Below, piece after piece: positions 12,491 to 60,812 of a stretch of DNA of 64,000 bases. The stretch comes from Moniliella sp. 'wahieum' (Eukaryota > Basidiomycota > Moniliellomycetes > Moniliellales > Moniliellaceae). The notes under the pieces are model-generated. The model was not told where the DNA came from. It saw nothing but the letters and a program-made list of their open reading frames with translations, and did not search any database. The stretch is taken from assembly GCA_003971905.1 (NCBI GenBank), contig RSEE01000007.1, forward strand, positions 620,001 to 684,000. Direction: 5' to 3'. Made by a program: the position numbers and the translations under genes. The first letter of the stretch is position 1, and each line of letters begins with the position of its first letter.

Positions 12491-12517
12491 GTCACTAGTC
12501 ACTAGTCACTAGTCACT
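12491..12517. repeat. Heptamer array, core ACTAGT
   Basis: Three and a half head-to-tail copies of CACTAGT at exact 7-bp spacing, isolated in an intergenic region. It has the same unit as the arrays at 31178, 47875 and 53281. Confidence 0.95.
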
Positions 12518-17319: not shown

Positions 17320-20300
17320 ATGGACAGCCTCGACTCCACACCAATTCATCCTCGGTGAGCTTGCCCTCACCCTGGCGGCCCAGGCCGCAGCAGGCCAGCC
17401 TCCGCCCGATGGTCCACGTGCTGTCCTTGCTCCGTCGCAGCAGCCCTCTCCTACCAAGACTTTTTCCCTGGCTTCCGTTCGCTCCGAGATCGGCCTGGGT
17501 GATCTCGCCACGCTCGCAGCTGCCAGTGGAGAGGCCAGCCTGGCGGAGATCCAGCAAGTCTGCTCGACCAGCGCAAGCTCTTGACACCCTCCTTGACATT
17601 GAGATTGAAGAGTCAATGGCGTGGCATGGCTGGGCCCCGGCTGACCAGTTGGCATACTCGCTTGTCACCACCCTCCTCCGCGTCGCACGCCACGTCGAAT
17701 CGGAACGGGTGGCGTCAGTGAAGGCAGTGACTGGGTTTGCGCGCGAGCTGGTGGCCCGCTTGGTTGCCCCGGCAGGGGATGCCCACATCATGGCTACTCG
17801 CCTTGTCCCTTACTTTCACGGCCTGTATCGCGCCATCTCCAGCCTCGCATTCAATTGGGCCGATCACGAGTTTTAGCCATGAGCAAGGCGATGGAGCCGA
17901 TTGGCGCGTCGCCTCAAGTCCTGCGTCGTCGCTGAACGATGCACTGATCGTCTTGCCTGAGCAAGAAGCTGCGATGGAGCAGGCCACCTCACCACCCGCC
18001 GGCAAGCCAAGGCAACAGCCAACCCAGACAGCACATCCTTTGATACCCTCTTGACCGACTCGGATCAAGAGTCGTTGACGCACAGCGAGGAAGGGAGCTG
18101 CAAGACCACGCAGACGACGAAGCCTTCGAGTTTCGCACCTCCTTGCTGGCGTTTATGTGCGCTCCCACCGCCCGTTTTCAGGCCAGTTTGTGCTATGTGC
18201 AGGATTGAGATGCTGACCAGCATTCTCTCTCAAGTTTTGGCTCGCTTTGCCTCTGTCGCCGGTGGGGCGGCATTAAGCCTGACATCAAACCCCTTCACAC
18301 CCACCAGCTCCACACAGAGCTCGAGCACAACGCGACGGCCACAGCGAGCCTGGAGCAGCTGTTATCGTACCCTGTCGCTGCTATCCCGAATGAGGAGCTG
18401 GCCAAAGGCCTCAACGCTACCCTGGCTCTCGCTTCGCATGCATACCACGACACGTACCGTTTTGTCCTGAGTGAGCAATCCAGGGGCAAAACGAGATCTC
18501 CGTGGAGCTGTACTCGCTTGAGATTCTGTCTGAGGCGCTCAAGCTGTCCGCACTCTGCACCGTAGGCCAAGTGCGCTCTGCACCGCTCAGTACGCGGATG
18601 TGGATGGGGATGTCTTTATGCGTGTGCGGTCGCTTCTGTCCTGTCCGAGCAAGCACATCTCTACCAGCCTGTCTCCAATGCTCTGCACTGCAATCAACAG
18701 GGATGCTGGTGATGAACTTTTCCAACCTGGTGATGTCAATGACCAGCCAACTGCGTCGGTTCGTTACTACCCCTCTTGCCATGTTCGAGCCCGAGCCTGG
18801 GCAAGAGGATGAGACGTCCCCACTTCTCATCACGGCCGCCAAAGCGCTAGGGCATGTGTGACCGCCCATGGCAAGGAGGACCTAGTCGTCTCAACAGTAT
18901 ACACTTTGCTCAACTACCTGGGTCGTGACGCGGGGATGGCAACCGCAAACGGAAGTGGCTCGCTTCGCTCTGGCTATTCGCGTACAACAAGCCGAGAAGA
19001 TCGCTTTTCGGGCCGCACCGAAGAGCAAAAGGCATCCATTGTTGCCAACACGGTCGCCGTGGTCAGCCGCCTGGCGCTGGAGGTGGGGAAGATGGACGTG
19101 ATTAGTTGACACTGAGTATGCTCCTCCAGCGCCTCCGTGCTGCTGATGGCTTCTCCGAGGGACTCATTATGGTCAACATCGTCCCCCTTGCCATCGCCGG
19201 GACGCCCACTCGTTTGGGGAAGTGGTTCGCGCATTTGCGCAGGTTCTCCGCAGTTCCATGGCCGGCGGGATTCAGCGGCGCGGCACTGAGCTTGCGCATG
19301 TAGCCGTTTAGCTGGCTCAGGGCCTGCAGAGACGCAACGATACCACCCGCTCTACCGCCACGCCCAACGACGGGGGTGGAGAGGACTTGGATGGCCCGCC
19401 CAAGGAGCAGGACCACTGCTGGCTGCAAGGAACATTATCTCACTGAGTGCTTCAGCTTTTTGCGAGAAGGGCAAGCAGCTCAGGCTGCCAGCAACCATCG
19501 CGCCACATCAGAGGAGCAGCGCGAGCTTCGTCTCGAGGTGGCTCGGCTTTGCCCACCATAGCAGAACTGCTGCGCACCGCGACCTCAATCCGCAGGTGGC
19601 ACTAACAATGAGTTATTTCCCTGTTCCGCAACATGTGGTTCCTGTTGGTCTCTTTACCTGGCCAACCCCACAGTCGCACGGCGCGCAGCAGCTGTAGCGG
19701 CCGAAAAGGGATCAGAGTTGCTCCTCCCTACTGATGCCGGTCGACCCGGACGGGTGCATGCCATTGCCCTGGCGCTTGTGGCCGCTCAAGACGCCCACCC
19801 TTGTCCCGAGACGGCCCACAACTCCGAGACGGAGATTGCAATTCAATTCGGTGCTCAAGCGCAATCTGAGCACTACGACTCTGGATGCGCAACGCCGCTT
19901 GCTCGCCCAACGATCCCATCGCAGAGCGCGGCACCATTCGGTCTTTCAAACTCCCCAGGTCATTCTCCTTGACCATCTACAACATTGAGATCATCCGCAG
20001 TAGCTTGGACGGACGCCGTCGATGCTGTTTGTGGTACTTGTCAACGAGGGCCTCAAACACCTGTCTGTGTGGCTCCATGGACACGATTGCCGACAAGGGA
20101 CACAAGAGTGGCAAATCTGCAACCGCAGATGGCGGACCATAACATTGATCCACGTACCACGGACGAGATACAAAATTTGTTCCTTGGCACGGTCCATCGT
20201 GTTGCCAGGTCCGTCACATGTCGGCCAACGTGTTGGACAAGTTATTTGGCACTTACCCCACCTTGTTGTGCGACGCGCGACTTGTGACGTTGGTACTGGA

Positions 20301-26817: not shown

Positions 26818-28710
26818 GGCGAGGGGAGGGGGAGGGGGGGCGAGGAGGAGGAGGGAGAGGTGGTGGGAAGAGGAGGGGATGGGGCAGAAAAAGTATCTTG
26901 CCTGTCGAGTGGTAGCAGCTGTCGCTCGCTCGGCTGGGCCGGGCGGGACTGGGTGAGTGCGTGTGCACACGCCTGGTCCTGCTCTGCAATATACGCCCGA
27001 GGGAGCCAAACGACGCACCAACGCCATGGCCCGCACGGGGGCAGTGGGCCTGGCGGCGATTCCCCTGCCGCAGAGAGGCGGTGGGTGGGCAGGGTGCAGA
27101 GTGGCGCGGTGCGGTGCGGTGGGACGGGGCGGCAGCGGCAGCGAGTGCCGTGCCGTGCGCCCGGCTGCACCTTCCACCTGCGGCAGGCGGGGTGCAGCAG
27201 GGTGCAGTGCCTGTTTGTGCCGCCGGCTCTGCTGCCTGCCGCACGCGAGCGCACGCCTGGCACGCCGGCCGCTGCAGGGGGCGAGCTAGTGCGGGCACCC
27301 CGTGCATGCTCGGGCATCGATCATGCATCCGATCATGCCGCTGGCTGCTGGCCCTCGTGTGGGATGGGTGCTTTCCCGATCCCTTTCAGATCTCAGTCGC
27401 TCAGCAGTCACTCTAGTCACTCCTAGTAGTCAGTACTCAGTACTCCCCGTAACCCAGTATCCAGCCGTGTCGAATGGGCATCGGTCACCGACATCTGCCC
27501 TCTGCCACCCCGTCTACGCGAGAGTGGCAGTGGTCCCATGTCACACGCGAGCGCATCGCAATGGCGCCCGCTGTGGCCGCTTGCCTCCCCAGGCGATCCC
27601 CCATTCGCAATCGGGGCTGAGGCACTGGGGCTCAGTCTGGCGCAGCGCTCAGCCGCTCAGCCGCTCACGTCCCGCTCCTCCTCCCCGAACGAGGGGGCCA
27701 GGAGCAGGGCCACAGTGTGATCCGCTGCTGCGCCATTGCAAACACATGTGGATGGCGGGGGGAATCCCCTCGTCGTCCTTCCCTCGGCCCGCCACCCCCC
27801 CCACACGGCTCATGTGGGTTTGAAAGCGCACCTGCGCCCTGGGGCCGGGCAGGCCTGGCTAAACGCTGAGCCAACGCTGAGCCTCAGCACTGACGTAGTA
27901 AGCACTACTGGTCTGCTGTGCTCCACCGACTCGTACGGACTCCGAGCGACCCCCTTCAAATTCTGACGCACACGCTTGCTATATTATCCGTCCCGGCGCT
28001 GTTGTGCCGACGGGGTCTGAGGCCCTGAGATCCTGAGATCTGAAATCAACGGGCCCTGGGCACTGTACACACCGAGTCCATCTGAGTACCTGAGTACACA
28101 CGCTACAACCGCCGCTCCCCTCTCCAACCGCGCTCTCTCTTGTGCTGCTCTCAGCTCGCTGTGGCTGGCTGAACGGGGGTATTACGCGTTACGCTGGAGA
28201 GGGCACTCACCATCACACACCCTTTTCATATCCATGCACCATGCATCACCCAAACGTCACGCATCTAAGTTTTTCCCTATCGTCTATCGTCCCTGTCACA
28301 TCCACATCACGCACATCACAGGTCCCAGCACCAAACTTTTTACACAGCCAAGCACCATCAGCGCACCAGTATACCCAGTGCATCAGCACCATCCCATCGG
28401 AGCAGGAAGGCGCATGAGCACGAGATCGGAGCAAGCGAAGCATGGCGATGGGCGATGACGTTGAACGTTGACGTTGACATGCATTGAAATTCAACCAGCC
28501 CCAGATCCCACAGGCGCCCCGGCTCCAGCATCCCATCGAGTCTGAGATCTGCCATTTCATCTGAAATCCGGCCAGAGTGTGAGATGCGGGTCGTGTAGAT
28601 CGAAGTCAATCCTAAAGCAATCAAGCTCAAGCTTCAAGCTTCAAGCGCCCAGTCGTTGATCTTTCCCGTCACCGACATCGGCCATGCCTCCTTGGCCCAC
28701 GTGTCCGCGT
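26818..28710. other. Intergenic region between exo-glucanase start and NMT1 end
   Basis: This is a G/C-rich, low-complexity stretch near 26820-27280 with long open frames on both strands that show no family resemblance. Weak heptamer-like words appear at 27389-27446 (including two CAGTACT units) and 28020-28095, and a CAAGCTT pair at 28626-28647. I see no gene. Confidence 0.5.
28621..28647. repeat. Heptamer array, core AAGCTT
   Basis: CAAGCTC followed by two CAAGCTT units and a partial CAAGCG. It lies in the 3' flank of NMT1. Confidence 0.85.
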
Positions 28711-35261: not shown

Positions 35262-35372
35262 TGATCGATCTAGTGATCGGAGTTGTTGACGAGTTGGGCT
35301 TCTTTTCGTAGCACTGATGATCGATGATCGATGAACACGGATGTTGATCGATGATCAAGGATGCATGATGCG
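35262..35372. repeat. Mixed heptamer stretch, cores ATCGAT and ATGCAT
   Basis: Scattered AGTGATCG and a tandem GATCGAT array near 35318-35333 (GATGATCGATGATCGATG), then GATCGATGATCAAGGATGCA. Unit changes are visible over about 100 bp. Confidence 0.8.
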
Positions 35373-36192
35373 TGACGCCCACACCAGCCTCTGTTCGTCT
35401 CCTGCGTCCTCTTCCTGTGCCTGCAGGCTGGGCGGAGCACTAGCGGAGCTGCTCCATGCTTGGAGTTCACCCGGGTACACTGCCGCCATGCACATCTGCC
35501 TGCGCCCCCCTGGTGTGCGCCGGCGTGGCCGGCTGTTCTCTTGCACCGACAGCAGGCGGCCAGCAGAGCAGTCCAGACGGCGCGCCTGGTGCTCGCGCTC
35601 GCACGCTTCGCTCCCGCGTTCTGAATCTGAGAAGGCTAAGATCTGCCTCTCAGATCTAACGCGTAACGTTCAACCATCCAAATATTCTGGTTCCAGGATC
35701 GTTCGAATGCCGACAACGCCGATGAACTTGACCGGCGAACATGCTGTACGGACTGGTTGTTTACGCCGTTTACGCGGTTACGCTGCATGTGAGAAGCTTG
35801 AAGACTTTTGGAATTCTGGACGCTGCAACTGAGAGTTGGACACGTGTATTGTCCAGCCCTGTACCTGACTAAATCGATTCCATGACCGGATCGGCGCATG
35901 ATGCGCACCATGCGCCCAAGGACTGGGAGGACTTGGAGGTCAGATATACGAGCACGTGACCAGGCGTAGCCTTATTAGGCCTTAGGTGGTCCTGGCGTCT
36001 ATCGTCATGCATGACACCATCCGTCAGCGCGTCAGCTGCGATACTAGTTATCGATTATCGCCGATAGCTACCCTATACGACCCCTCTACCATCTCCTCGT
36101 CGCACACATCCATTCTACTAACCACATTGCTCGTTACCAGTGAGGTGTTACCACCGACGTTTAACACGTTTAACGCCGCTTGGACCACTCAA

Positions 36193-40605: not shown

Positions 40606-42628
40606 TCACTCGTCCTCGTCCTCATCCGCATCCCCCTCGCCTGCATTGGAAGCAGAAGCGCCAGAAGCCGCTTGGCGGCGCTGACGCTTTCCTTCGGGCA
40701 CCGCGTCGTCCTGGCCCTCAGCCTCAGCCTGTAGCGCCGCCAATTCGTCGTCCATCTCTTCTGGATCGGCGTCGGAACCAGCGTCAGAACCCGAGTCAGA
40801 GCCCGAGTCAGAGCCCGAGTCAGAGCCCGAATCAGGTGCCTGGCGCTTGGGCGAGGGTGATCGGGAGGACGCAGAACGATGCAACGAAGCATCACGGGCG
40901 CGGGAGAGGAGCGCCCCTCCTCCTCTTCCGCCTCGGCCATGGACACATCCTCATTGCCGTCCACCTTTGTGTGCGGGGGCGAGGGGCGCCTGGAAATGGG
41001 CGTCGAGGCGGCGGAAGATGCAGCTTCTTCTGGCTCAGAATCGGACAGCTCGGGTACCAGGGTAGGGTCCAACTGGTCCACCTCGCGACGCGAGCGCCAT
41101 GCCTTACGGAGCTCGTATTGGGACAGAGCTCGGTCCGTCGCTTGCACACCGGCCCACATATCCGGGTAACGAGCCGAGTCGGTGCGTTTCAGGCGCTTTT
41201 GGCGCAATGTGTACTGCATCGCCACAGGATGGTAGTAGGCCACCGGACGTTTCTTTCCACTTCCCACAAGGGGCGGGGCGTGACCCTTCTTTTCCAATTG
41301 CTCGGCCTGCCAGTCGGATTGAGCCTTGCTCGCCACCGGGGCATCCCCTTCTTCTGTCAATACAATCACATACTGACTTGCCTGGGCTTGACCCGCATTC
41401 TCCCCGGCTTGATAGTCGCGATGGAACTTGAACTGGGTCATTGCCGATTCCGGCGCTTGGCCATCCTCAATTTCGTCCAGCGCGACCAACTCGCCCTTGA
41501 TTCGACGCTCCTTGAGTTTGGCGACCGCAATGTCATCGAGTTGTTCTTGGCTGAGCTGCTCAGACTCAGCTTCTGGCTGGGGCGAAGGAGACCTGGGTTT
41601 GCTTTCATTGTCCGATTCCGAGTCGCCAAAGAGCCCCTCGTCGTCTATCTCCCTCATTAGCAGGTTTGGACTTGGATTTGTTGTGCTTGGTCCGGGGCTT
41701 GCCATTTCCATTCGCAGGAGGCGGGGCATCCTTCTCATCCCCCGTTACGAGATAGAGGCTGATCCGCTGATCACCACCATGGTTGACGGGGCGCAGGATG
41801 GCCTCAGCGACGCGGGGATCAGCAACAGGTTGACCTGCACGTGTTCGTCCGGGCCAATCCTGGAACCGGACCAGCTGATAGTCGGTCGCCCACGTATCCA
41901 CATCGGGCAAGAACTCGTAGGAAGCAACAGGCTGGAGATGGGGCTTGGTCGGGTGCCGCAAACTGGCCAAAGAACTGTCCTGGACAGCAGCAAATGTCTC
42001 GTTGATTCTGGCCACTGCTGCATCACGCGACGTGTCAACGTCCATAATATCCTCTTGGTCCACACCGGCCTTGCGTCTGGCCGCCTTTTCGGGGGTGGCA
42101 CCGTGTTCGTTCCTTCGCAGCCACGCAGCATCCGCACCCGATTTGCGCGAGATCATGACGGATGACATTTTCGATGCAACCGCCGACGAGGACGCAGGCA
42201 GTGCTGCAGACAAGGGAGTGAGCAAGAACCGATCCTCTTCATCGATCTCGAGGGTGTCGACATCAGGCAAGGTGCGCGGGGCAAAGTGGTTGATGTCGCC
42301 AGTCCAGACGCCCGGAAAAGGGGTGAGGTCCATGGGGATACCGCCCTCTGCATTGACGAGGACGGGGAGCTGGTTGGCGCGAGCCAGACGGTCGGTGAAG
42401 GTGATGGCCAGATCGCCGCCGACGCGACTTTGGGTCTCGGGGCCATCGGCGTAGCGTGCAGCAGAGACGCTGACGCGCTGGAGCTTGGGCGGGAAAGGCG
42501 GGAGAGGGAGCGGGTTGGGATACCGCACGCGGTCGATGAGCTCGGTCCTAACGCAGCGCGTTAGCAATGAGCGGTGGAGCGGTCAAAGAGGGGGGAAGAG
42601 ACACGTACTGCTTGCGCTCGCTACTCAT
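40606..42628 (-). CDS. PAF1: RNA polymerase II-associated factor Paf1
   Basis: Subunit of the PAF complex that travels with RNA polymerase II and supports H2B ubiquitination and H3K4 methylation. Exon 1 is tiny (MSSERKQ, 42628-42609). A 61-bp intron (42548-42608, GTACGT donor, GCTAAC branch, TAG acceptor) leads to TELIDRVRYPNPLPLPPFPPK, the hallmark PAF1 opening. Downstream are MDLTPFPGVW, DEEDRFLL, HLQPVASYEFLPDVDTWATD, FKFHRDYQA, KRPVAYYHPVAMQYTLRQKR, and the acidic Ser/Glu C-terminus with an SDSG repeat (12-bp units, 40796-40835) and KRQRRQ. Frame breaks lie near 41650 and 40880. It is divergent from RSM19 with about 206 bp between start codons, so the two probably share a promoter region. 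Confidence 0.92.
40796..40835. repeat. 12-bp coding minisatellite in PAF1
   Basis: About three to four near-perfect copies of a 12-bp unit (GAGCCCGAGTCA on +) encoding SDSG repeats in the acidic tail. The length is a multiple of 3, so copy changes keep frame. Confidence 0.9.
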
Positions 42629-47896: not shown

Positions 47897-48795
47897 AGGG
47901 GAAGCATGGCTGTGAGAGCTGCTACCCCGCCGTAGCCGCAGTCTCTCGCCAAAGCTGCTGCGCATCGCCAGCTATCGTCTTCTATTCCGACTGCTTCCAG
48001 AGTGGTACAGTGTCAATTGCATGCCAATATTCAATCGATTTTGACTCTTTTTGTGCATATACCATTGCTTAAGGCGCTTATAAGGCCTAATTACTAACTG
48101 CTGCTATTATTATGGTCTGCGCCTGCTTATACAACCCGTGTGCGTCAGGGGCCTATAGCTAGTAATAGCTGTTGCTCGAGCGATAGGAAATGGTGTGTTG
48201 GGGGGAGCAATTGATGGTGTGGCTTGGGCTTTTCTGTGCCTGACTTTCTGAGGCCGGGGGGAGATCGGACAAAAAGGAAGACAGATTGTGTCACACGCGC
48301 CACTGGACAAGAAGAGTGCTCTCGTTGGGCCAATTGTGTGGCGTAGTAGAAAAGTCTGATGGGCTCTGGACCAATGGTGGCCAGCTTAATGTTGTTTGAG
48401 CTGTGTATCGCAGGCCGTGGCCCGCCGTGGCCGGGGGGCGCACGTCCCAGTTTTAGATATACTTTCTGAAGCGTTCCTACAGTTCATGCATTTTTGGTCC
48501 ATTAGTAACCATAATGCCGCCAAAAGCTCACAGTGAACTGAGAGATCGATTTGAGAGTTGCCGCCAGGGAGGGCCAAGAAAGTTTGGCAACGCGTGATCT
48601 AGCCCGAAACGAACCCGGTGGGGGGGCAGCCAGGGCAAGGCGGTGTATAGGATAGAAATAGCGCAGTCTTTACTGCCTCTCCGCCAGTCATTTACCGCCT
48701 AAGGGTATGGTCCTGCGGCGCTTAATCGTCCCAGACAAGAGGCGTCCGTTCCCTGGTACATACATAGTCATCGATGCGATCATATATATTGAGTG

Positions 48796-48915
48796 CTGAT
48801 GCGCTGATGCACTGATGCACTGATGCATGATACTGAGAGTACGAGTTCCTGATTACATTGAGAACTGTACTCAGTTGAGTACTCAGGTACTCAGTACTCA
48901 AATCTCAGACTGAGT
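48796..48915. repeat. Heptamer/octamer arrays, cores ATGCAT and AGTACT
   Basis: GCTGATGC then CACTGATG 8-bp units end in GATGCATGATAC. They are followed by a cluster of TACTCAG words around CAGTACTC (48865-48915). Confidence 0.75.
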
Positions 48916-48944
48916 ACCGAAGGCTTGACGCTAGCTTGAGATCT

Positions 48945-49095
48945 TGAGAAGAAGCTTGAAGCTCTTGAAGCTAGCTAGCTTGAAGCTCTTCGAGGGGTTG
49001 AACGTGAACAACGTTGAACGTTGAGACGTTGGAGGAACGATGCATGATGCATGATGCATGATACTCGTGTAATGCATGATGCGTGATGTATGCAT
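48945..49095. repeat. Heptamer arrays, cores AAGCTT, AACGTT, ATGCAT
   Basis: GAAGCTTGAAGCTCTTGAAG (48950-48975), then CAACGTTGAACGTTGAGACG (49011-49030), then three GATGCAT units (49040-49062) and further GATGCATGATGC near 49075-49100. Three cores lie within 150 bp. Confidence 0.9.
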
Positions 49096-49377
49096 GATGC
49101 CGCATGCCAGCACATGTCAGTGTCAGCGCAATCCCGCATGTACCTGAATCACACGCGCCGCACAGGGATACTAGTCACTAATCGAGCGCTCAGCCATCAC
49201 GCGTCACGCCGCCGCTGTCTTCTACCTAACTTTTCTCCCCATATTCTGTCTTTTAGTACGGGCCTCCTCTGAGGATGCCCGAGGCCTGAGGCTGAGGCTC
49301 TTCGGCCTCAGGCCGGCCTCAGACTCTGAGGCATGATGGACTTGATGGGCTTGATGTAATCCCCCCTAAATTTGGAC

Positions 49378-49470
49378 CGTCGTCATCGAGCGTCATCGCG
49401 TCATCGACGTCATCTCTCTTTTTTAGTAGCTTGAGAAATCAACGAAGCTTTTGAAGCTTGAAGCTCAAAC
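49378..49470. repeat. Heptamer-like arrays, GTCATCG and GAAGCTT
   Basis: Repeated CGTCATCG words (49380-49415), then GAAGCTTTTGAAGCTTGAAG (49445-49465). Confidence 0.75.
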
Positions 49471-50113
49471 TACGCGTTTGGCGCTTGTAATGAAGCTTTA
49501 TGTGCGTGATGAAGCAGATCGTTGATGGCATGATGTCCAACTGGCGAGCCCTGACGTTGCGAGGTCAGAGCTGAGAGGAGAGGTCCTCGGGCCTTGGGCG
49601 TTATCTGTGGGCTCAGAGTGTGGCAAAGTTCCGTGCAACGCTGGAGTCCACTACATTTGTCGTGTGTTGTTATATCAATATCGCCGGTCGCGGTCGCCGG
49701 TCGCGTGTTGCGAAAGCTGTTGTGTGGTGTCGGGTTTTTGTCGGTTACGCGTTCCCTTACCACATGCCAGTGACATTTATACCGGCTAAGTGGACGACGT
49801 GGGATTTGCTCTCTATTACCACCATCGAAGTTAGGTCTTACTGCGGCGAGCGCGCATCCGGTCCTATACTTGTGGTATTCTGTGACATCACAGGTATCAT
49901 CGGTACCACACGCGCCCAGCCACGCATTATCAGCGATTGTGGTTTTCACTATTCTTCATTTCGCTCTATTTGCCATGCCGAAGAGAAGCAATCGGTTGTT
50001 GGGGCTGTGTGGGTCACATTGGAGGAGATTTACTAGTAACTCTGGGAGCGCGGGGGGCCTACTCGTTCACAGGTGCATTCTCCTTCCTAAAAATATATTA
50101 TTGTGGAGGACTG

Positions 50114-50140
50114 GCCTTAGGCCTTAGGCCTTTTCACTCT
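50114..50140. repeat. Heptamer array, core AGGCCT
   Basis: Two exact AGGCCTT units preceded by a partial copy (GGCCTTAGGCCTTAGGCCTT). The spacer base is T/A, not C/G. Confidence 0.88.
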
Positions 50141-50704
50141 TTCGCCCGACCTTTAGTTTCCGAGGCCTACTCATATATAACTACTGAAGGCTGTTCGAAC
50201 CCCTACATTTTCCAAGTAAGAAATGAGGCCTGACGCCTGAAGGGCAGGAGGATCTGAGGCACAAGGCACAGGTCTGAGGGCGAGAGGCCTATAATAGACC
50301 TCCACCCATTATTCTAAAAAGTTCAACCACGAGAATATCGACCTGGCATTTGTTGCATCGTAACCAACTGTGGATGCCATCAGATGGCCTCTAAAAGAGC
50401 TAGGGAGCTGTTCACGAACACGGAGAGTGAACGAAGTATCCAGTGGTGGAAGCGGTATCGGTTGTGGAGAGAGAAGACAGGAGGAGACGCGAACATAGGA
50501 GCACAAAAGGAAAGCGCAGGTGCGCCGCCAAAAACACTGAGACCTACTGCCAGCGTCGCATAGAGCCTGCCTAGGTCAAGCTAAGCGCTGACATCAACAC
50601 ATCACCACAGACTATATTGCTTTGCTTCTCTTGAGGGTTTTCATGAATCCTTTTGGGGTCCTCTGGTCCGCCGCATCACATATGAGTCACATCGTGATAT
50701 CGGT

Positions 50705-50970
50705 GTGTCAACGTTCAGTACGTTCAAAACGTTCAACGTTCAACTCGCCTTTTCTCTTCAAGCTTCAAGAGCTTCAAGCGAGCTTCAGGCAAGCTTCAAG
50801 CTTCAAGAGCTTCAAGCTTCATAAATCATCGATCAAGTCGATCAAGCCTCAAGCTCTCAAGCTCTCAAGCTTCAAGCTTCAAGAGCTTCAAGGCGCACCC
50901 TCTGAGGACGAGTACTGAAGTTCGAACCTTCGGCTTGAAGAGCTTAAAGCTTGAAGCTTGCAGAGCGTGA
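50705..50970. repeat. Large compound array, cores AACGTT, AAGCTT, ATCGAT
   Basis: It starts with AACGTTCAACGTTCAA, then about 130 bp built from CAAGCTT and a longer CAAGAGCTT variant, with ATCATCGATCAAG in the middle. It ends with the reverse orientation (GAAGAGCTTAAAGCTTGAAG). The AGAGCTT form is a 9-bp variant of the heptamer. Confidence 0.9.
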
Positions 50971-51257
50971 AGAGCTTGATCGTTAGCTTGAACCTTACCG
51001 AGCGTCGCTTCTCCGTCTGTCGCTTCCGTCCAAGTGGCTGACTGTTTTGCAAGGAAGGGCTTCCACGTGCGCCCCCTCCTCTGTTCGAGCCATTGGGGCT
51101 AAGCCTTAGCGCCCTTAGCGCTATGCTAAGGACAGGGACAGTGCGGGGCTTGATGCGTGGGGCTGGTGGGGCGTGGGAGGGCGTGGCCTAGCGTGGAATT
51201 GGCGGCGAATTGGCGTGGCGCGTTGGAGCAGCAGGTTGGAACTGTTGGAGCCGGTAC

Positions 51258-51395
51258 ATGGTGACCGGTGACCGGTGACCGGTGAAGCTTGGCTGAGGCG
51301 CTGAGGTTACCGGTTACGCGTTACGCGTTACGCGTTACGGGTGATTCGATTAATGATCTTTGACGTGTGACATGTGACATGTGACAATAGTGACA
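51258..51395. repeat. Heptamer arrays, cores ACCGGT, ACGCGT, ACATGT
   Basis: Three GACCGGT units (51262-51283). After a short gap, ACCGGTT passes in register into three ACGCGTT units (51309-51338). After another gap comes GACGTGTGACATGTGACATG (51362-51385). Confidence 0.95.
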
Positions 51396-51423
51396 CGTGG
51401 CGTGACGCCATGCGTCATGCATG

Positions 51424-51478
51424 CCACCGGTGACCGAGAACCCAGAACCGGGAACCGGGAACCGAGGACCGAGGACCG
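51424..51478. repeat. Degenerate heptamers, ACCGGGA and ACCGAGG
   Basis: CCACCGGTGACCGAG, then tandem AACCGGG and GACCGAG 7-mers. They keep the 7-bp period although the palindrome is imperfect. Confidence 0.75.
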
Positions 51479-51704
51479 AACGGCAGGGGTCTGCGGCGCG
51501 CATTCCACAGTTCCGGCACACCCTTCTCTTTGCACGCACGTACACGAGAAGAGACACATTAGTACTTTTACGTACCGGCTGTACCCGTGATTCTTGCACC
51601 GGCGACCGGTGACAGATCACCCACATCTGTTGCCGGCATCATGCATCACACATACATCCAGTCTCAGATCTGATTTCCCACGTGTCACGCTCACGCCCCT
51701 ATCA

Positions 51705-51870
51705 CCTAGTGTCACATGTCACATGTCACATGTCACCTGTCCCGTGTCCCATGTCACAGTCACATGTCACATGCAATACACACCAGTACCCAGTACTGAA
51801 CTCAGTTGAGTTACTCAGACTGAGTGTACTAAGCGTTGAGTGTTGAGTTAACACTCAGTTACTCAGTACG
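51705..51870. repeat. Heptamer array, core ACATGT, followed by AGTACT-type words
   Basis: Three to four CACATGT units (51712-51738) with CCTGTCC and CCGTGTC variants, more CACATGT (51760-51772), then a 70-bp zone of ACTCAGTT/AGTACT/GTTAAC words. Confidence 0.92.
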
Positions 51871-52317
51871 CGAAGGGCTCTGCACTTGGTACACTTCTGC
51901 TTGGCATGACGCTTCACCATCAACATGCAATCGGCATGTGCATGATAGTTGCCTCTGCGTCTAGAAAAGACAGTCATTTGCTTTTGGGCGGGGCAGGCCG
52001 ATGCCTAAAAGTTGTGGCAAAGACCAACATGTGCATGTTGTGATTCCGGGCGCGATCATCGATCCATGGAAGACTGGCTGAAGACGATGAACAGAACGAC
52101 AAGAGAGGATGATATGCGGAGTATCCCAACAGAGAAGAGGCAAGATATAAAGGAGGAATTATAGCCGTTTGTAAGGAGATGCATGATCCACTTGAAGAAC
52201 GTAATGCTATTGACATGATGTCTGTGTAGTTGCAATGACGCGCCAACCCAGCGAGAACCTCTGTAAGCTGTGGCCCTGTAACATGTAATGCATGGAACCT
52301 GTATATATATCCCCTTT

Positions 52318-52410
52318 TTCAAGCTTCAAGCTTCTCGGTGTCCAAAGTATACTGTACTCATCCCTACTCTCAGTACTCCGTACTCAGTTTGAGGATCTGA
52401 GTACTCAACA
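52318..52410. repeat. Heptamer arrays, cores AAGCTT and AGTACT
   Basis: TCAAGCTTCAAGCTTCTC (52319-52336), then CTCAGTACTCCGTACTCAGT and GAGTACTC further on. Confidence 0.85.
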
Positions 52411-52979
52411 GATGCAACGTTCAAACCCCTTCCAGATCTTATTCTCAGCTGGTTATCTTGTTGGTGATACCTGATGGTGGCAACACACACACTTCAGAGC
52501 AAAGCAATTTAAAGCGCGTCTCTCCACCAACGTGTCTCGTCTCGATTTCCTTGCTCATCGGGTATATCTCGCCAGTAGCCATCATGCATCACGAGTCACT
52601 AGCTTCTTTTAACCTTCGTTCTATATCCAGCGGCCCGCCTTCCTTCTTCCCGTCCGGCCTTGCAATGGAGCGCGCCTGCATGAGAGCCTATTAGGCATGG
52701 TACATACGACAATTTTTGGCCACGGATCTTCGCCGAGACAAACTGTGGTGTCCTCTCCCTGAAATCCCATTCCGGCGTCCGGCCTCATATTCAATGCACG
52801 CTAAGAATAGAGTCTGTGGTTCCGTAGGCGTGCAAGGCCACACCTTTGTATAATCAGCCCCAGCTGCCCCAGCATGTTCAGCCAGGCTCAGCCTGCCTAT
52901 GCAATAAGCGCCCACACCGCTCACATGTCACAAGCATCACATCCCAACTACCCCACAGCCACAAAGATACGTGCAACAT

Positions 52980-53016
52980 GTGAGACTAGTGACTAGTGAC
53001 TAGCTAGTGACTAGGA
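52980..53016. repeat. Heptamer array, core ACTAGT, G orientation
   Basis: Two GACTAGT units, a CTAGCTAG junction, then GTGACTAGG. It is the reverse-complement orientation of the CACTAGT arrays elsewhere. Confidence 0.92.
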
Positions 53017-53139
53017 CTCCGCTCCGCGGGCCTATTAGATCTTAGAAGAGACTTTATCGAATGCACCCCCAGAGAAAGGGACCCACCAGAGCCACACTAG
53101 AGCCACCCTGGGCCCTACTATCACCACTGGCCGTTCCTG

Positions 53140-53356
53140 TTCCCAGTACGCAGTACACTCAGGCCTTAGGCTACTCACGCGTCACGTACTCAGTACTGAG
53201 ACTCAGTACGCACCGTTATTGAACGATGATCGATGATCGATGAAGCTAGCGATCGATGAAGTTCACTAGAGTGAAGCTTGAAGTCACTAGCTAGTCACTA
53301 GTCACTAGTCACTAGTCACTGGTCACGGTCATCGATCATCGATCATCGAACACTGG
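53140..53356. repeat. Densest heptamer mosaic (AGTACT, ATCGAT, AAGCTT, ACTAGT)
   Basis: AGTACT-type words at 53140-53215. A continuous mosaic at 53222-53356 follows: ATCGATG x2, ATCGATG, AAGCTTG, then ACTAGTC x4, ACTGGTC and ATCGATC x2. The register of 7 is kept across most core changes. Confidence 0.95.
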
Positions 53357-53713
53357 TACACATCTGTAGGTGACCGGTGACTCCTGCGACGAGCGACAAT
53401 CGATCTAATCCATGGATGGAATGCAATCCGAAGTAGCACATCCTGTACCGTGTGTGAAATGTGGCGCGTCACAGCCTGACGGGCCTGACGAGTGCCGAAC
53501 AGGGCCGTGTCTTCCCTTCTCACATTCAGAATCTTCATACCTGTCGTTCCAAGGGGGGGGAAAGGGGCTACTAGGATGGCTGCAGTCTCTATCTGCTCTC
53601 AGGCATCAGGGAGGCCTCGGGCGCTCAAGCCGGTCAGGCCTCGGGCTCTGTCCTGCCATTTTGCCTTTATAGACTCTTCCCCCCGTCGTTCGCGTTCACG
53701 GATCACGCCCATG

Positions 53714-53740
53714 ATGGCATGTCACATGTCACATGTCACG
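53714..53740. repeat. Heptamer array, core ACATGT
   Basis: Three CACATGT units at 7-bp spacing (GTCACATGTCACATGTCAC). Confidence 0.92.
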
Positions 53741-53857
53741 AGGATATCAAGTGATTGGGACTTCAAGTGTCCGGCCGCACCTCGGTCCAGAAATCCCCCA
53801 AAACACACTCCCGAAGAGCTGGGCAGGCAAGTGTCGTGACCAAGAGTTAATTCGTTC

Positions 53858-53895
53858 AGCATTGAATATTGAATATTGAGATCTGAGATTGATCG
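53858..53895. repeat. Heptamer mosaic, cores AATATT, AGATCT, ATCGAT
   Basis: Two AATATTG units, one AGATCTG in register, AGATTG, then ATCGATC. It is a compact example of core replacement. Confidence 0.9.
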
Positions 53896-54155
53896 ATCGT
53901 CTTGGTGGCTGCTGGCGGAGGTTGGGGCGGGGGCCTGTAAGACTCTGGGTGTTCACATGTCACACAGTGGGACTGAGTAACTGAGTACTGAGTCTTTGTA
54001 CTGTGACGCCAGAGGCGCCTGATGCTCTTAGGCCCACCAAACAGTGGCGGTGCGGCCAGCAGCGCTTGCATAATGCTCTGTAAACACGTAACGAGAGTGT
54101 GGCGCCCGCCTTGTCTCTCCTTTGAGGCTGAGCGCGCTGTGAGCGCTGTGAGCGT

Positions 54156-55867
54156 TGGACACCGCTAGAGTGCACCGAGCCCAGAGAGGCACCCTCGGTC
54201 CTCAGTCTGAGAATACTGAGCCCTGGCCTGGGGAGTACGCCGTAACAGCATCCCATCCCATACTCCGCCTCTTCGATCGCCACTTCTCAGATCTCAGGGT
54301 CTGTGTCGGTTGGTGTGGGCCATGCTGGGCCATGCTAGGCCACGCGTCGCACATGCATCGGCCGCCTATTGTCACCATGCCACATGTCATGCCACCGTTC
54401 AAGACAGGCACTTCCCCAGCCCAAGAGCATGGGCGCCTTGCCCATGTCACCGGTCACCACACGCCCCGCCCAGCGCAGCGCTGGCTATATGCCGCTCGGC
54501 TGGTTCGCTGCCCTAGACCGCACAGTCCGTGCTTCCCCACAGCCTCCACCCTCCCATCGACGCTGGCGCCCGCTTCCCTCTGTCCGTCCTCGGTGGCCAG
54601 CTTCTCCGCCGTCTCTCCCTTAGAGTGTAAACACTCGAGGCCAAGTCGGGCCCGGAAGAGCAACCAGGCCTCATTGGGAGCAGGGTCCAACCGCCAACCA
54701 ACATTGAGAGTCTCTCGCCGTCGGAGTTTTCAAAGGGCCTACGCGCTCGTGGTTTGCGAAGCCGCCGCCAAGTTTTCCGCCCTCTGCTCTCTTGGACACC
54801 GATTTGGGGCACTTTCTTTGTTTCCGGCCTCTTCCGCGCCAGTTGAGCACGTCAACCAACTGGTGAGGCCGCCCGCTTCTTCACCTCGCCCATCTCCTCC
54901 TCCTTCTCGTTCTCCTCAGTCGCCTCGCACGTAACGCGGCCATCCACCAACGCCTCCATGGCCCCGCCTCCCCATCCTCCTCACGTCCTCCGCGCGCTCC
55001 CAACGAGACACTCGCGACACAGCATGACCTTGAGCGTCCGACCAGAGCCGACACGCAAAACCCACCAGCAGTTCATGGCCCCTCAATCGGTTAGGCCTTC
55101 TTCCGGGACCTGTGGGACCTTCTTCCGAGCCTACCGCCAACCTGCCTCTACGTTTGCCGCCGCCTCTGTCCCAAACCTCTCCAGGCCGCTGCACCCCAGC
55201 TCAGCCTTGCCACAGACGACACCGCTGCAGCACCTTATGTATCCCCACCTCCTGGCCCCCCTGCCTCGCACCGCCTCCTACCACCCTCGCTCCTCTCCGG
55301 TCTCGCCCGCCCCTGGGGCGCCCACTGTCTCGACCGCCTCTTGCCCCTCCTCCCTTGAGCCGAACCGAGGTCGATCAGCCATCTAGATTCGACTTCTCTC
55401 CCTCCATCACCCACGCCCACCTCGACACGACCTCGAAACCGATCCTAGACTCCCTCCTTCATCCTCCTCCACTCACCATCTGAGCACTGGCTCCGAGTGG
55501 ACACGCCCAGGCCCGATTAGCTCGGCTCCTGGACAGCACATGTCGGGACAGGAGGCTGAAGAAACAAGATTCCTCCAACCCCGTTCCTCGGATCGCGCGT
55601 GGCCTGCATCAGGCACCTCTTTCCACTCCACCTCAGCGCTCCTTCTCTCTGGCACCCCAATGGCCGAGCACGACCGATAGGATCTTCCCCATATTCGCGG
55701 GAAGAGTATCTCTTTCGTACCGAGCACGGTGGATCCAGTGTTGGATCGGAAGTGGCCACCTCGATTCGTGAAGCAGAACCGCGGGGGTTGACCAAGGTTC
55801 TTCATTAGCACGGATCCTCAACCCTTCCCGTCGCCCTCCGGGCTCACCTGATGATCCCGAAGCCACA
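54156..55867. other. Leader region of the Zn2Cys6-PAS gene, possibly coding in part
   Basis: 54.9-55.85 kb is Pro/Ser-rich in several + frames (for instance MAPPPHPPHVLRALPTRHSR at 54958). It may be the low-complexity N-terminus of the transcription factor, broken by indels. I found no domain and cannot decide between coding and leader. Confidence 0.4.
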
Positions 55868-59048: not shown

Positions 59049-60812
59049 GCAAAGGGTAAAGTTTCCGTGCCCGGAAAAAAGTTTAAGGGCACGAAGGCTA
59101 AAAAGGATGCCCTTCGTCAAGTGGAAGAGGGTGCAGATGACGAGTCACTCACTTCGGAGCAGATAGCTTTCTTGGACGGGCGATGATGCTGATGAATTGG
59201 AGGGGTCGTCGGACGAGGAAGGGGAGGGGGAAGACGAGTTTGACAGGGAGACGGAAGACGAAGAGGAGGCCGTATAGGGGCCAATTCGACCAACGGTGAT
59301 GAAGACGACGACGACGATATGATGCCCCCCACCCTGCAAGATGCCGAAGAAAACATTGCCGCACTCCAGGGTACAGACCTGAAGATTGTCCAGCAGCGTA
59401 AGCAGGAGACTGTGACGGTCCTGACCAACTGGAAGAACTTTGACAAGTCGGACATGAGCGGTGCTCGGAGTCGGGCAGAGTATGTGGAGATGCTGCTCGA
59501 AGATATCTGTTCCTACTCTGGCTACAATCGGTTCTTGGCCGAGAAGTTTTTTGTCCTTTTCGCTCCCGCCGAGGTACGTGATGTGCTTAGTGGCGTGAAT
59601 TCAATTTCCGCACCGTGCTGACGTTTGTTGGAATCTCTCTTCGGCACTGGAGTTTTTGAGGCGAACGAGGTGCCTCGCCCTGTCACAATCCGCACCAACA
59701 CCCTAGGCACCCGCAGGAGGGACTTGGCCCAAGCGTTGATCAACCGCCGTGTGTCGCTGGAGAGCCGTTGGGGGAGTGGTCAAAGGTGGGGCTGCAAGCC
59801 TTTGAGTCGTCGCTATCTGTGGGTGCGACGCCAGAGTATTTGGCCGGGCAGTACATGTCTTCATCCTTCCTTCCTTCCTTCCTTCCTTCCTTCTTTTTCC
59901 TTCCTTCCTTCCTTCCTTCCTTCCTTCCTTCCTTCCTTGCATGCATTGGCACCGCAGCCGGGGGACCGGGTGTTGGATATGGCATCTGCACCCGGCGGCA
60001 AGTCAACGTACCTGTCGGCGCTGATGCAGAACACGGGGGTGGTGTTTGCCAACGGCGCCAACAAAGCGCGCACCAAGTCGTTGACGGAAAATGTGCACTG
60101 GTTGGGATGCAAAAATGGTGGTGTGCAGCTACGATGGTCGTATGTTCCCCAAGGTGACGGGCGGGTTTGACCGCGTTCTGCTCAACTCGCCTTGCTCTGG
60201 CACTGGGGTGATCAGCAAAGATGCCAGTGTCAAGACCCACAAGGGTGAGCGCGATATGCAGTTGCTCACCCACTTGCAAAAACATCTGATCTTTTGCGCC
60301 ATTGACTCCATCAATATCCGCTCGCCGACGGCGGGGTACGTCGTTTACTCGACCTGTTCGGTCTTGGTTGAGGAAGACGAGGAAGTGGTGGAATATGCAC
60401 TGCGCAAGCGGCCCAATGCCAAGCTCGTGCCCACGAGCGTCAACTTTGGACAGGTTGGTTTCCCCTCCTTCCGGGGCAAGAAGTTTGACGCGAAGATGCC
60501 GCTTACCAAGCGGAGATTTTGACCCACGTGTGCACAATCTCGATGGCTTTTGTCGCCAAGCTCAAAGTCAGCCCCCGCGACAAGACCCACCATTCCCCCA
60601 AATATCAGGAGGAGGAGGATCCGCAAATGACCTACTTTGGCTCCCGTTCAGGCGCAGCCAACCCCGCCTCCACAGGCAAAAACAAGAAGGTTGCCGCCGC
60701 GAAGGCGGGCGAGTCGCTGTTCAACGATGAGGATGAGGATGCCTCCTTGATCCAAAAGTCGCTGGAACAGGCCAGCAAGAAAAGGAGCAAGGGCAAGTCT
60801 TCATCTAGGTGA
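59049..60812 (+). CDS. NOP2: 25S rRNA (cytosine-C5) methyltransferase Nop2
   Basis: Nucleolar SAM-dependent m5C methyltransferase needed for 60S assembly. Exon 1 is not found; the visible part begins after a TTAG acceptor with AKGKVSVPGKKFKGTKAKKD and acidic repeats. Then come LTNWKNFDKSDMSGARSRAE, LLEDICSYSGYNRFLAEKFF, an intron (59574 to about 59652), FEANEVPRPVTIRTNTLGTR, KVGLQAFESSLSVGATPEYL, PQPGDRVLDMASAPGGKSTY (SAM site), GFDRVLLNSPCSGTGVISKD (motif IV) and YVVYSTCSVLVEED (motif VI, nucleophile Cys). The tail is Lys-rich, with stop at 60810-60812. Two oddities: motif IV has Asn where Asp is expected, and a TTCC microsatellite (59864-59939) lies inside the coding sequence. Several frame breaks occur (for example near 59185, 59275, 60115 and 60520). 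Confidence 0.92.
59864..59939. repeat. (TTCC)n microsatellite inside NOP2
   Basis: About 18 tetranucleotide units with one interruption (TTCTTTTTCC). In every frame the array reads Phe-Leu-Pro-Ser. It falls at the place where relatives have a short SSFLP segment between the N-terminal part and the SAM-binding fold. Confidence 0.95.

Follow-up and report, generated by a model that had tools for sequence, protein, structure and literature searches.

The 64-kb stretch of the Moniliella sp. 'wahieum' genome analysed here (hereafter the window; positions 620001-684000 of contig C7, RSEE01000007.1, in assembly GCA_003971905.1, which comprises 69.5 Mb in 223 contigs) carries arrays in which a 6-bp palindrome of the form ANNNNT is repeated head to tail with a single spacer base, that is, every 7 bp. 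We found that this palindromic heptamer phenomenon is real, genome-wide, and far beyond chance. A better rule for it is a duplicated TNA-centred 7-mer with two palindromic nucleotides at one edge, and junctions of this kind account for many of the 7-9 bp differences between the window and what is probably its other haplotype. The arrays may be iterated excision footprints of a hairpin-forming cut-and-paste transposon; the junction pattern was observed directly, whereas the enzyme is postulated from it, and we regard this reading as evenly poised between right and wrong.

Palindromic heptamers at a spacing of 7 bp

The window contains 31 pairs of identical 6-bp palindromes at a distance of exactly 7 bp, against a mean of 0.29 and a maximum of 2 in 100 dinucleotide-preserving shuffles. 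All 31 are of the ANNNNT form and use 11 of the 16 possible cores. Twenty-three of them lie between 48700 and 54200, where the 100 shuffles gave none, and most of this interval is taken up by a non-coding cluster (48780-54155) in which palindromic heptamer arrays occur together with single scars; seven more arrays lie outside it, at 12494, 27432, 28629, 31183, 35091, 35320, and 47879. An initial annotation of this DNA, made from its letters alone, had described the cluster and named a shuffled null as a test of it, and the counts in the window far exceed this null. Its count of 11 cores is also correct, although the AGTACT pair lies at 27432, so that 10 of the 11 are found inside the cluster.

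For a wider view, we used a 200-kb sample of 20 stretches of 10 kb from contigs C1 to C7, placed at round coordinates chosen before the sequence was seen. It holds 50 palindrome pairs at spacing 7, 47 of them ANNNNT, as compared to 6, 4, 2, 0, 4, 5, and 2 pairs at spacings of 6, 8, 9, 10, 11, 12, and 13, respectively; a spacing of 14, which is twice 7, gave 17 pairs. At least one spacing-7 pair was present in 17 of the 20 stretches, and no 8-bp palindrome in the sample recurred at spacings of 8-13. When the window and the sample were combined (264 kb), 62 of 84 period-7 tandem runs were fully self-complementary, where 18.2 are expected for shuffled units; the corresponding numbers at periods 5, 8, and 9 were 0/23, 0/7, and 0/6, and among periods of 3 to 15, 7 was the only one with a clear excess of self-complementary runs over expectation. 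Over the whole genome, three-unit ACTAGTN arrays (ACTAGTNACTAGTNACTAGT) occur in 344 places versus 2 for a reversed-pattern control, and the degenerate 12-mer TCASGSSTCASG, which covers 16 strings of which two obey the rule, occurs 3,562 times on both strands versus 208 for its reversed control.

The spacer base had been given as mostly C or G, and this holds for the majority of arrays in the window and in the sample, with T and A found as well. The view that what unites the arrays is geometry and not sequence is also supported, 15 of the 16 possible core dinucleotides being used in the 264 kb. A library artefact is an unlikely source of the arrays, since they differ between haplotypes and occur on contigs across the sample. 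A long perfect array of a non-palindromic heptamer, GCACCAA, was observed at L006:9014-9123.

Junctions phased on TNA and differences between haplotypes

Direct repeats of TNA placed 7 bp apart frequently enclose a palindromic 4-mer (TCA, 114/192; TGA, 104/177; TTA, 16/30; TAA, 11/21); the median over all 64 triplets is 4%, and the next highest is ATG with 29/175. We considered that self-complementarity alone might be favoured, but the 10-bp form TCA-NNNN-TGA has a palindromic core in just 10 of 61 cases, in contrast to 114 of 192 for TCA-NNNN-TCA, and thus it is the direct TNA repeat that matters rather than the length of the palindrome. Among 202 runs of the TCA and TAA forms on both strands, the commonest combination of start and end is TCAnn-n'n'-TCAnn, with 28 runs, and the mirror form n'n'TCA-nn-n'n'TCA likewise accounts for 28. 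The 177 TCA runs show length peaks at 12 bp (40 runs) and 19 bp (11 runs). Run ends phased at TNA borders and peaks at these lengths are not what slippage gives.

The exact form TNAnn-n'n'-TNAnn was found 285 times in the 264 kb (both strands, array units included), as compared to 1.0 in third-order Markov sequence. Single junctions with a 5-bp duplication and two palindromic bases have TNAnn in 45 of 78 cases, and these 45 show no marked base preference in the ten bases on each side. Apparent 1-nt additions accompanied by the loss of one base were rejected as a class of their own, since nearly all that were inspected belong to the 2-nt class, the lost base being one that already matched.

To describe the length of the duplication, we call P2 products those duplications which carry exactly two palindromic bases at the junction. 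TNA-centred P2 products of 5, 6, 7, and 8 bp number 281, 32, 23, and 0 in the 264 kb, where the third-order Markov expectation is 1.0, 0.7, 0.2, and 0.0, and in the 200-kb sample alone they number 164, 19, 9, and 0. The longer ones are four of 9 bp, all inside ACTAGT or ATCGAT arrays in which the core is doubled or overlapping. A 3-bp TNA duplication of the PIF/Harbinger type, suggested by the symmetry of TNA, and a 5-bp duplication alone were both rejected because intact duplications extend to 7 bp. The bases between intact copies obey the same rule. Pairs of intact, non-palindromic, TNA-centred 7-mers (one strand) have fillers of 0, 1, and 2 bases in 8, 20, and 22 cases, a three-base filler once, and a four-base filler never. 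The one-base fillers are complementary to the edge of a copy in 20 of 20 cases (11/11 outside the window) and the two-base fillers in 16 of 22 (9/14 outside the window), for which we estimate chance rates of about 44% and 18%, respectively. Under a stricter criterion, with exact repeats of a 7-mer, the fit for one-base fillers is 11/12 where the repeat is TNA-centred and 7/29 where it is not; for two-base fillers it is 4/6 and 12/42, respectively. The duplication length at the junction is fixed, at 7 bp, and the filler is in most cases the reverse complement of the flanking edge; both are properties of excision footprints, the filler corresponding to P nucleotides.

The same junctions can be seen as differences between two copies of this region. 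Contig C54 (43866-79451) is colinear with window positions 28140-64000, with 96.6% identity in 32,818 aligned columns, and probably represents the other haplotype, most simply the other nucleus of a dikaryon, as an allele rather than a duplicate. The two differ by 531 indels, whose lengths peak locally at 7 bp, with 16 indels as compared to 6 at 6 bp and 5 at 8 bp. Of the 27 indels of 7-9 bp, 25 are flanked on both sides by ten columns with 8 or more matches, and 15 of these 25 fit the formula W7 to W7 + rc(last two) + W7 minus its first 0-2 bases, where W is NN-TNA-NN and rc denotes the reverse complement. Each of the 15 has a fitting 7-mer with T at position 3 and A at position 5. Control formulas in which the two bases are reversed, complemented, or copied straight fit 2, 4, and 5 of the 25 indels. 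The formula was read off the same indel table, and the 200-kb sample served as the separate test.

The 15 fits comprise 11 single events and 4 array steps, and among the single events 6 lose two bases, 2 lose one, and 3 lose none. The single scar TTAGA-TC-TTAGA (53035-53046, plus strand) is a 7-bp indel made of the 7-mer TATTAGA, TC, and a second copy lacking two bases, and TCACG-CG-TCACG (53175-53186, plus strand), from ACTCACG, is likewise a 7-bp indel; both are absent in the other haplotype. One base is lost in CGTCAGC-GC-GTCAGC (36022-36036, plus strand), an 8-bp indel. Both 7-mers are intact in three 9-bp indels, namely CGTCAGG-CC-CGTCAGG (53475-53490, minus strand), CGTCATC-GA-CGTCATC (49399-49414, plus strand), and CTTGAAG-CT-CTTGAAG (48955-48970, plus strand), the last of which has 9 bp of flanking homology and is also readable as a plain tandem duplication. 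These events bear on the kinds of mechanism proposed in the initial annotation. A mechanism that reads self-complementarity is right in so far as bases are copied as the reverse complement, but no pre-existing palindrome is needed. Annealing and extension of pre-existing palindromic 3' ends does not agree with single events at palindrome-free sites such as ACTCACG and TATTAGA. An enzyme that cuts or joins at 6-bp palindromes pointed in the right direction, except that the site is TNA and the 6-bp palindrome is the product.

Fitting events number 15 against about 1,106 base differences between the haplotypes in 33 kb, or about 1.4%, and such events make up a notable share of non-coding change between haplotypes. 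Gains are required by the genome-wide excess of scars, while the direction is not set for any single haplotype pair. A second haplotype pair, C3 and C79, differs by a retrotransposon. Window segments 49438-50200 (763 bp) and 52284-52471 (188 bp) are absent in the other haplotype and have ends without a clear target duplication.

Proposed excision footprints and alternative origins

Palindromic additions that form without a loop or an earlier inverted repeat are the mark of opened hairpin ends (P nucleotides), and a fixed-length duplication around a symmetric motif is the mark of transposase strand transfer. The junctions described above combine the two, and therefore point to an excision footprint. 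In the mechanism we propose, a 7-bp NN-TNA-NN site would become duplicated, the junction would gain up to two bases, reverse-complementary to the edge of one copy, and the other copy would lose up to two, giving insertions of 7, 8, or 9 bp; as a pattern, these steps can be read directly from the junctions. Where two bases are added and two lost, it would follow that TNAnn-n'n'-TNAnn is formed, which is the ANNNNT-plus-spacer unit. A second event at the now fully palindromic n'n'TNAnn would add an identical unit, so that an array could grow without slippage and with its core unchanged.

As the agent of these steps, we infer a DNA transposon of the cut-and-paste type whose target-site duplication is 7 bp long and has TNA at its centre. 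Its excision would leave the flanking ends sealed as hairpins, and a nuclease of the Artemis/Pso2 type may open each hairpin about 2 nt from the tip. The 3' end of one strand would then carry n'n', and the 5' end of the other would begin at TNA. End joining of one strand would keep the two palindromic nucleotides of one end and drop the two outer bases of the other, and because direct ligation can occur on either strand, the mirror scar would form as well. Parts of this scheme are known from other systems. Footprints of Ac/Ds in Candida take the form of short deletions or of P-nucleotide insertions, and in yeast, Pso2, which is related to Artemis, has been implicated in the processing of the hairpin ends (PMC5873905). 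Artemis opens hairpins either at the tip or 2-4 nt from it (PMC13041557), and hAT7 and Kyakuja, two kinds of basidiomycete element, produce target-site duplications of 7 bp (PMC12730594). In the genome profile search, one exon matched the Pso2/Artemis DRMBL family (E value 1.3e-4). The event is explained at the level of the junction, and its agent is a matter of reasoning from that level.

Several observations weigh against the excision-footprint reading. Ten of the 25 clean 7-9 bp indels do not fit the formula, and 4 of the 11 single fits (C54 positions 44217, 44412, and 75695, and window position 48960) are also readable as plain tandem duplications, with homology equal to insert length; furthermore, no outgroup sets gain apart from loss in the haplotype indels. 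A 3-nt addition with T as its last base fits 55 sites at which the first T is replaced by C, G, or A, so that T is preferred rather than required. P2 products without TNA number 121, 27, and 18 at 5, 6, and 7 bp, where about 27, 9, and 4 are expected, some of them being out-of-phase readings of arrays. Between intact TNA-centred 7-mers there are also 22 five-base fillers and 8 six-base fillers, against 1.3 expected for each (both strands), and neither kind is of the P type; 2 of 11 five-base places lie inside a 12-bp repeat at 40771-40835, and the rest are not accounted for by this reading. Examples of the five-base class, with TNA-centred 7-mers 12 bp apart, are found at window positions 17586, 27325, and 35266.

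The search for a source transposon adds further points on the same side. A screen of about 330 kb, or less than 1% of the genome, found no element combining terminal inverted repeats with 7-bp duplications; it included the other haplotype and covered duplications of 3-10 bp, and its 20 raw matches at 7 bp fell to 0 after a complexity filter able to drop real ones. Among 15 listed haplotype gaps of at least 28 bp, none was recognised by eye as a transposon with a 7-bp duplication. Profiles for the hAT dimer domain, Plavaka, KDZ, MULE, PIF/Harbinger, and hAT RNase-H had no match in the genome, in searches which ignored introns and in which positive controls matched for MULE and PIF, the other four profiles matching no control genome either; PF05699 and PF14372 matched neither this genome nor any control genome. 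A long terminal repeat (LTR) retrotransposon at L016:2862-6499 was rejected as the source, as it has 178-bp direct terminal repeats and a duplication of about 5 bp (shared flank up to 8 bp). This element is about 3.6 kb long, exists in many copies at 94-96% identity, and is absent at the matching place in C79. Two other repeats were observed, a dispersed repeat of about 235 bp (L019:4842-5076), with about 20 further copies among the matches listed, at roughly 77-83% identity, and ends that are not definable, and a 3.2-kb member of a multi-copy family (L019:4589-7778; contigs C5, C23, C91, C11, and C110) which is missing at the matching place in C16.

The same junction data would be accounted for by a host or selfish nuclease that makes 7-nt staggered breaks at TNA, with fill-in duplicating the 7-mer, processing adding the palindromic bases, and nothing being inserted. 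This would agree with the finding of no inserted element or transposase match, and the rather uniform product suits one dedicated activity. However, loop-free palindromic additions require a hairpin end that has been sealed, a product that plain nucleases do not generate, and a 7-nt stagger around a symmetric motif that is close to minimal is typically the work of transposase strand transfer; we therefore consider a nuclease acting alone unlikely, though worth keeping in view. Replication template switching, in which the polymerase copies 2-3 bases of the opposite strand at TNAnn and returns 5-7 bases upstream, would produce the inverted and the direct copy in one step with no need for a transposon, and one subclass of the junctions, at sites without the first T, can be read as a 3-nt inverted copy. 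It appears improbable, in that no prior inverted repeat was noticed at the single-event sites inspected, intact duplications outside arrays never exceed 7 bp, and straight, reversed, or merely complemented filler is not favoured in the same indels.

Ordinary microsatellite slippage of a 7-bp unit, aided by hairpin folding as in CTG repeats, seems very improbable as the origin of the arrays. Whole array steps do occur between haplotypes (4 of the 15 fits, and 21 bp at 51313), and together with the tandem-readable single fits they suggest that slippage may add to arrays already formed. On the other side, besides the phasing and length peaks of the runs, in seven single events the unit arises at a site that was not repeated and where the homology is shorter than the insert, and these events already largely refute slippage as the origin; slippage also leaves the restriction to TNA without explanation and would not account for the lack of a self-complementary excess at periods 5 and 9. 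As for functional protein-binding arrays kept by selection, it speaks for them that the scars are mostly outside genes, with 1 of 82 scar positions falling in the seven Pfam-matched open reading frame (ORF) spans, which make up 20% of the window. Yet the use of 15 of 16 core dinucleotides, the free variation between haplotypes at these sites, and the lack of a marked flanking preference make selection for binding barely credible, and for the protein-phased array raised in the initial annotation we found no evidence.

Among known systems, hAT (Ac/Ds) footprints in yeast, Candida, and plants resemble the fungal scars in combining a target duplication, P nucleotides, and small losses at the junction (PMC5873905), whereas hAT duplications are usually 8 bp (PMC12730594) as compared to 7 bp here. 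A difference that also weighs against the footprint reading is that Ac/Ds footprints have the complement of the border base at the centre of their palindrome (PMC5873905), while the fungal scars are even-centred at the edge of the 7-mer; five single events that lose 0-1 bases, three of them not tandem-readable, put the centre at this edge, and border-base centring was not found. Unlike our proposal, the available text of PMC5873905 describes no building of arrays from Ac/Ds footprints. The hAT7 and Kyakuja elements match the fungal duplication length and come from the same phylum; they are reported from Pucciniomycetes and Agaricomycetes, and the main text of PMC12730594, as available, has no mention of 'Ustilag' or 'smut'. 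No hAT or KDZ domain was found in the fungus, in searches that were without a matching positive control.

The RAG/Transib coding joints known from V(D)J recombination have even-centred P nucleotides of about 2 nt, with hairpin tips at the element border, and RAG as well as Transib makes 5-bp duplications. The fungal scars share the even-centred P nucleotides but not the duplication, as intact duplications in the fungus reach 7 bp and are TNA-centred. The likeness would extend to the Artemis cut, at the tip or 2-4 nt from it (PMC13041557). The scars are best classed as a variant of excision footprints: they are not placed under hAT because the palindrome centre is even rather than odd and no hAT domain was found, and not under RAG/Transib because the duplication is 7 rather than 5 bp.

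ACTAGTN arrays of at least 4 units also occur in at least 109 stretches of prokaryote genomes and in 12 viral contigs, with the same 7-bp period and the same ACTAGT plus one spacer base as in the fungus. These loci (L039-L147 and L148-L159) belong to unrelated bacteria and some viral contigs, use any spacer base, and by our estimate lie far above chance. At a spacing of 7 bp, the 121 prokaryote and viral loci (0.88 Mb) contain 594 pairs of ACTAGT and 3 with other ANNNNT cores; of their 1182 scar-type matches, 1171 carry the ACTAGT core, for which the loci were chosen. Since hardly any other core accompanies ACTAGT, these arrays are single-sequence satellites, in contrast to the fungal arrays with 15 of 16 core dinucleotides, in which no fixed unit is found. 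The heptamer short tandemly repeated repetitive (STRR) sequences of cyanobacteria share the 7-bp period. Hairpin-prone CTG/CAG repeats and the palindromic repeats made by in-vitro synthesis share a self-complementary unit with one odd base; both processes expand an existing repeat, whereas the fungal unit arises at single non-repeated sites.

Taking the excision-footprint reading further, we tentatively suggest that a mutational system opens this genome at TNA, leaves hairpin-sealed ends 7 bp apart, and produces V(D)J-like scars. Because the scars are themselves fully palindromic sites, such a process could be self-reinforcing and may write satellites that share a geometry. In a literature search, no description of such arrays or of such a mutational system was recognised. 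If correct, this would be a new origin for short satellites, built scar by scar through break repair rather than by polymerase slippage. The arrays would be a readable log of breaks, recording the site (TNA), the stagger (7 bp), and the hairpin opening (about 2 nt), and fungal hairpin repair would become open to study from sequence alone.

Features of the window

The scars are concentrated in the cluster, 44 of the 82 scar positions in the window falling in the 2-kb bins that start at 50000 and 52000. Arrays of three units in the cluster are ATGCAT with spacer G (49040-49059), ACCGGT with spacer G (51264-51283), ACGCGT with spacer T (51316-51335), ACATGT with spacer C (51714-51733), and ACTAGT with spacer C (53297-53316); at the ACGCGT array, 21 bp corresponding to three units is absent in the other haplotype. 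Two-unit arrays are AGGCCT with spacer T (50119-50131), AACGTT with spacer C (50728-50740), AAGCTT with spacer C (50867-50879), ATCGAT with spacer G (53229-53241), and AATATT with spacer G (53865-53877). The ATCGAT and AATATT arrays each have one unit more than the other haplotype, and the AACGTT array has one unit less. Outside the cluster, there are three units of ACTAGT (12494-12513) and two each of AGTACT (27432-27444), AAGCTT (28629-28641), and ATCGAT (35320-35332).

The window contains no tRNA and no Rfam match, and the two cluster ORFs tested (49473-49949 and 54155-54931) have no Pfam match; explanations of the cluster by tRNA, Rfam, or Pfam families were therefore discarded. Pfam matches elsewhere in the window are to an SPB4-type helicase, a ubiquitin protease, SKN1/KRE6, Paf1, a PI3/4-kinase, and a protein kinase. 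Among the best 120 of 3,581 relatives of the KRE6 reading frame, none is near-identical, and the top one is from Tilletiaria anomala, with 69% identity over 77% of the query, which suggests a position of the fungus within the Ustilaginomycotina. A TCCT tetranucleotide array of about 19 copies is present at window positions 59864-59938, and its length differs between the haplotypes.

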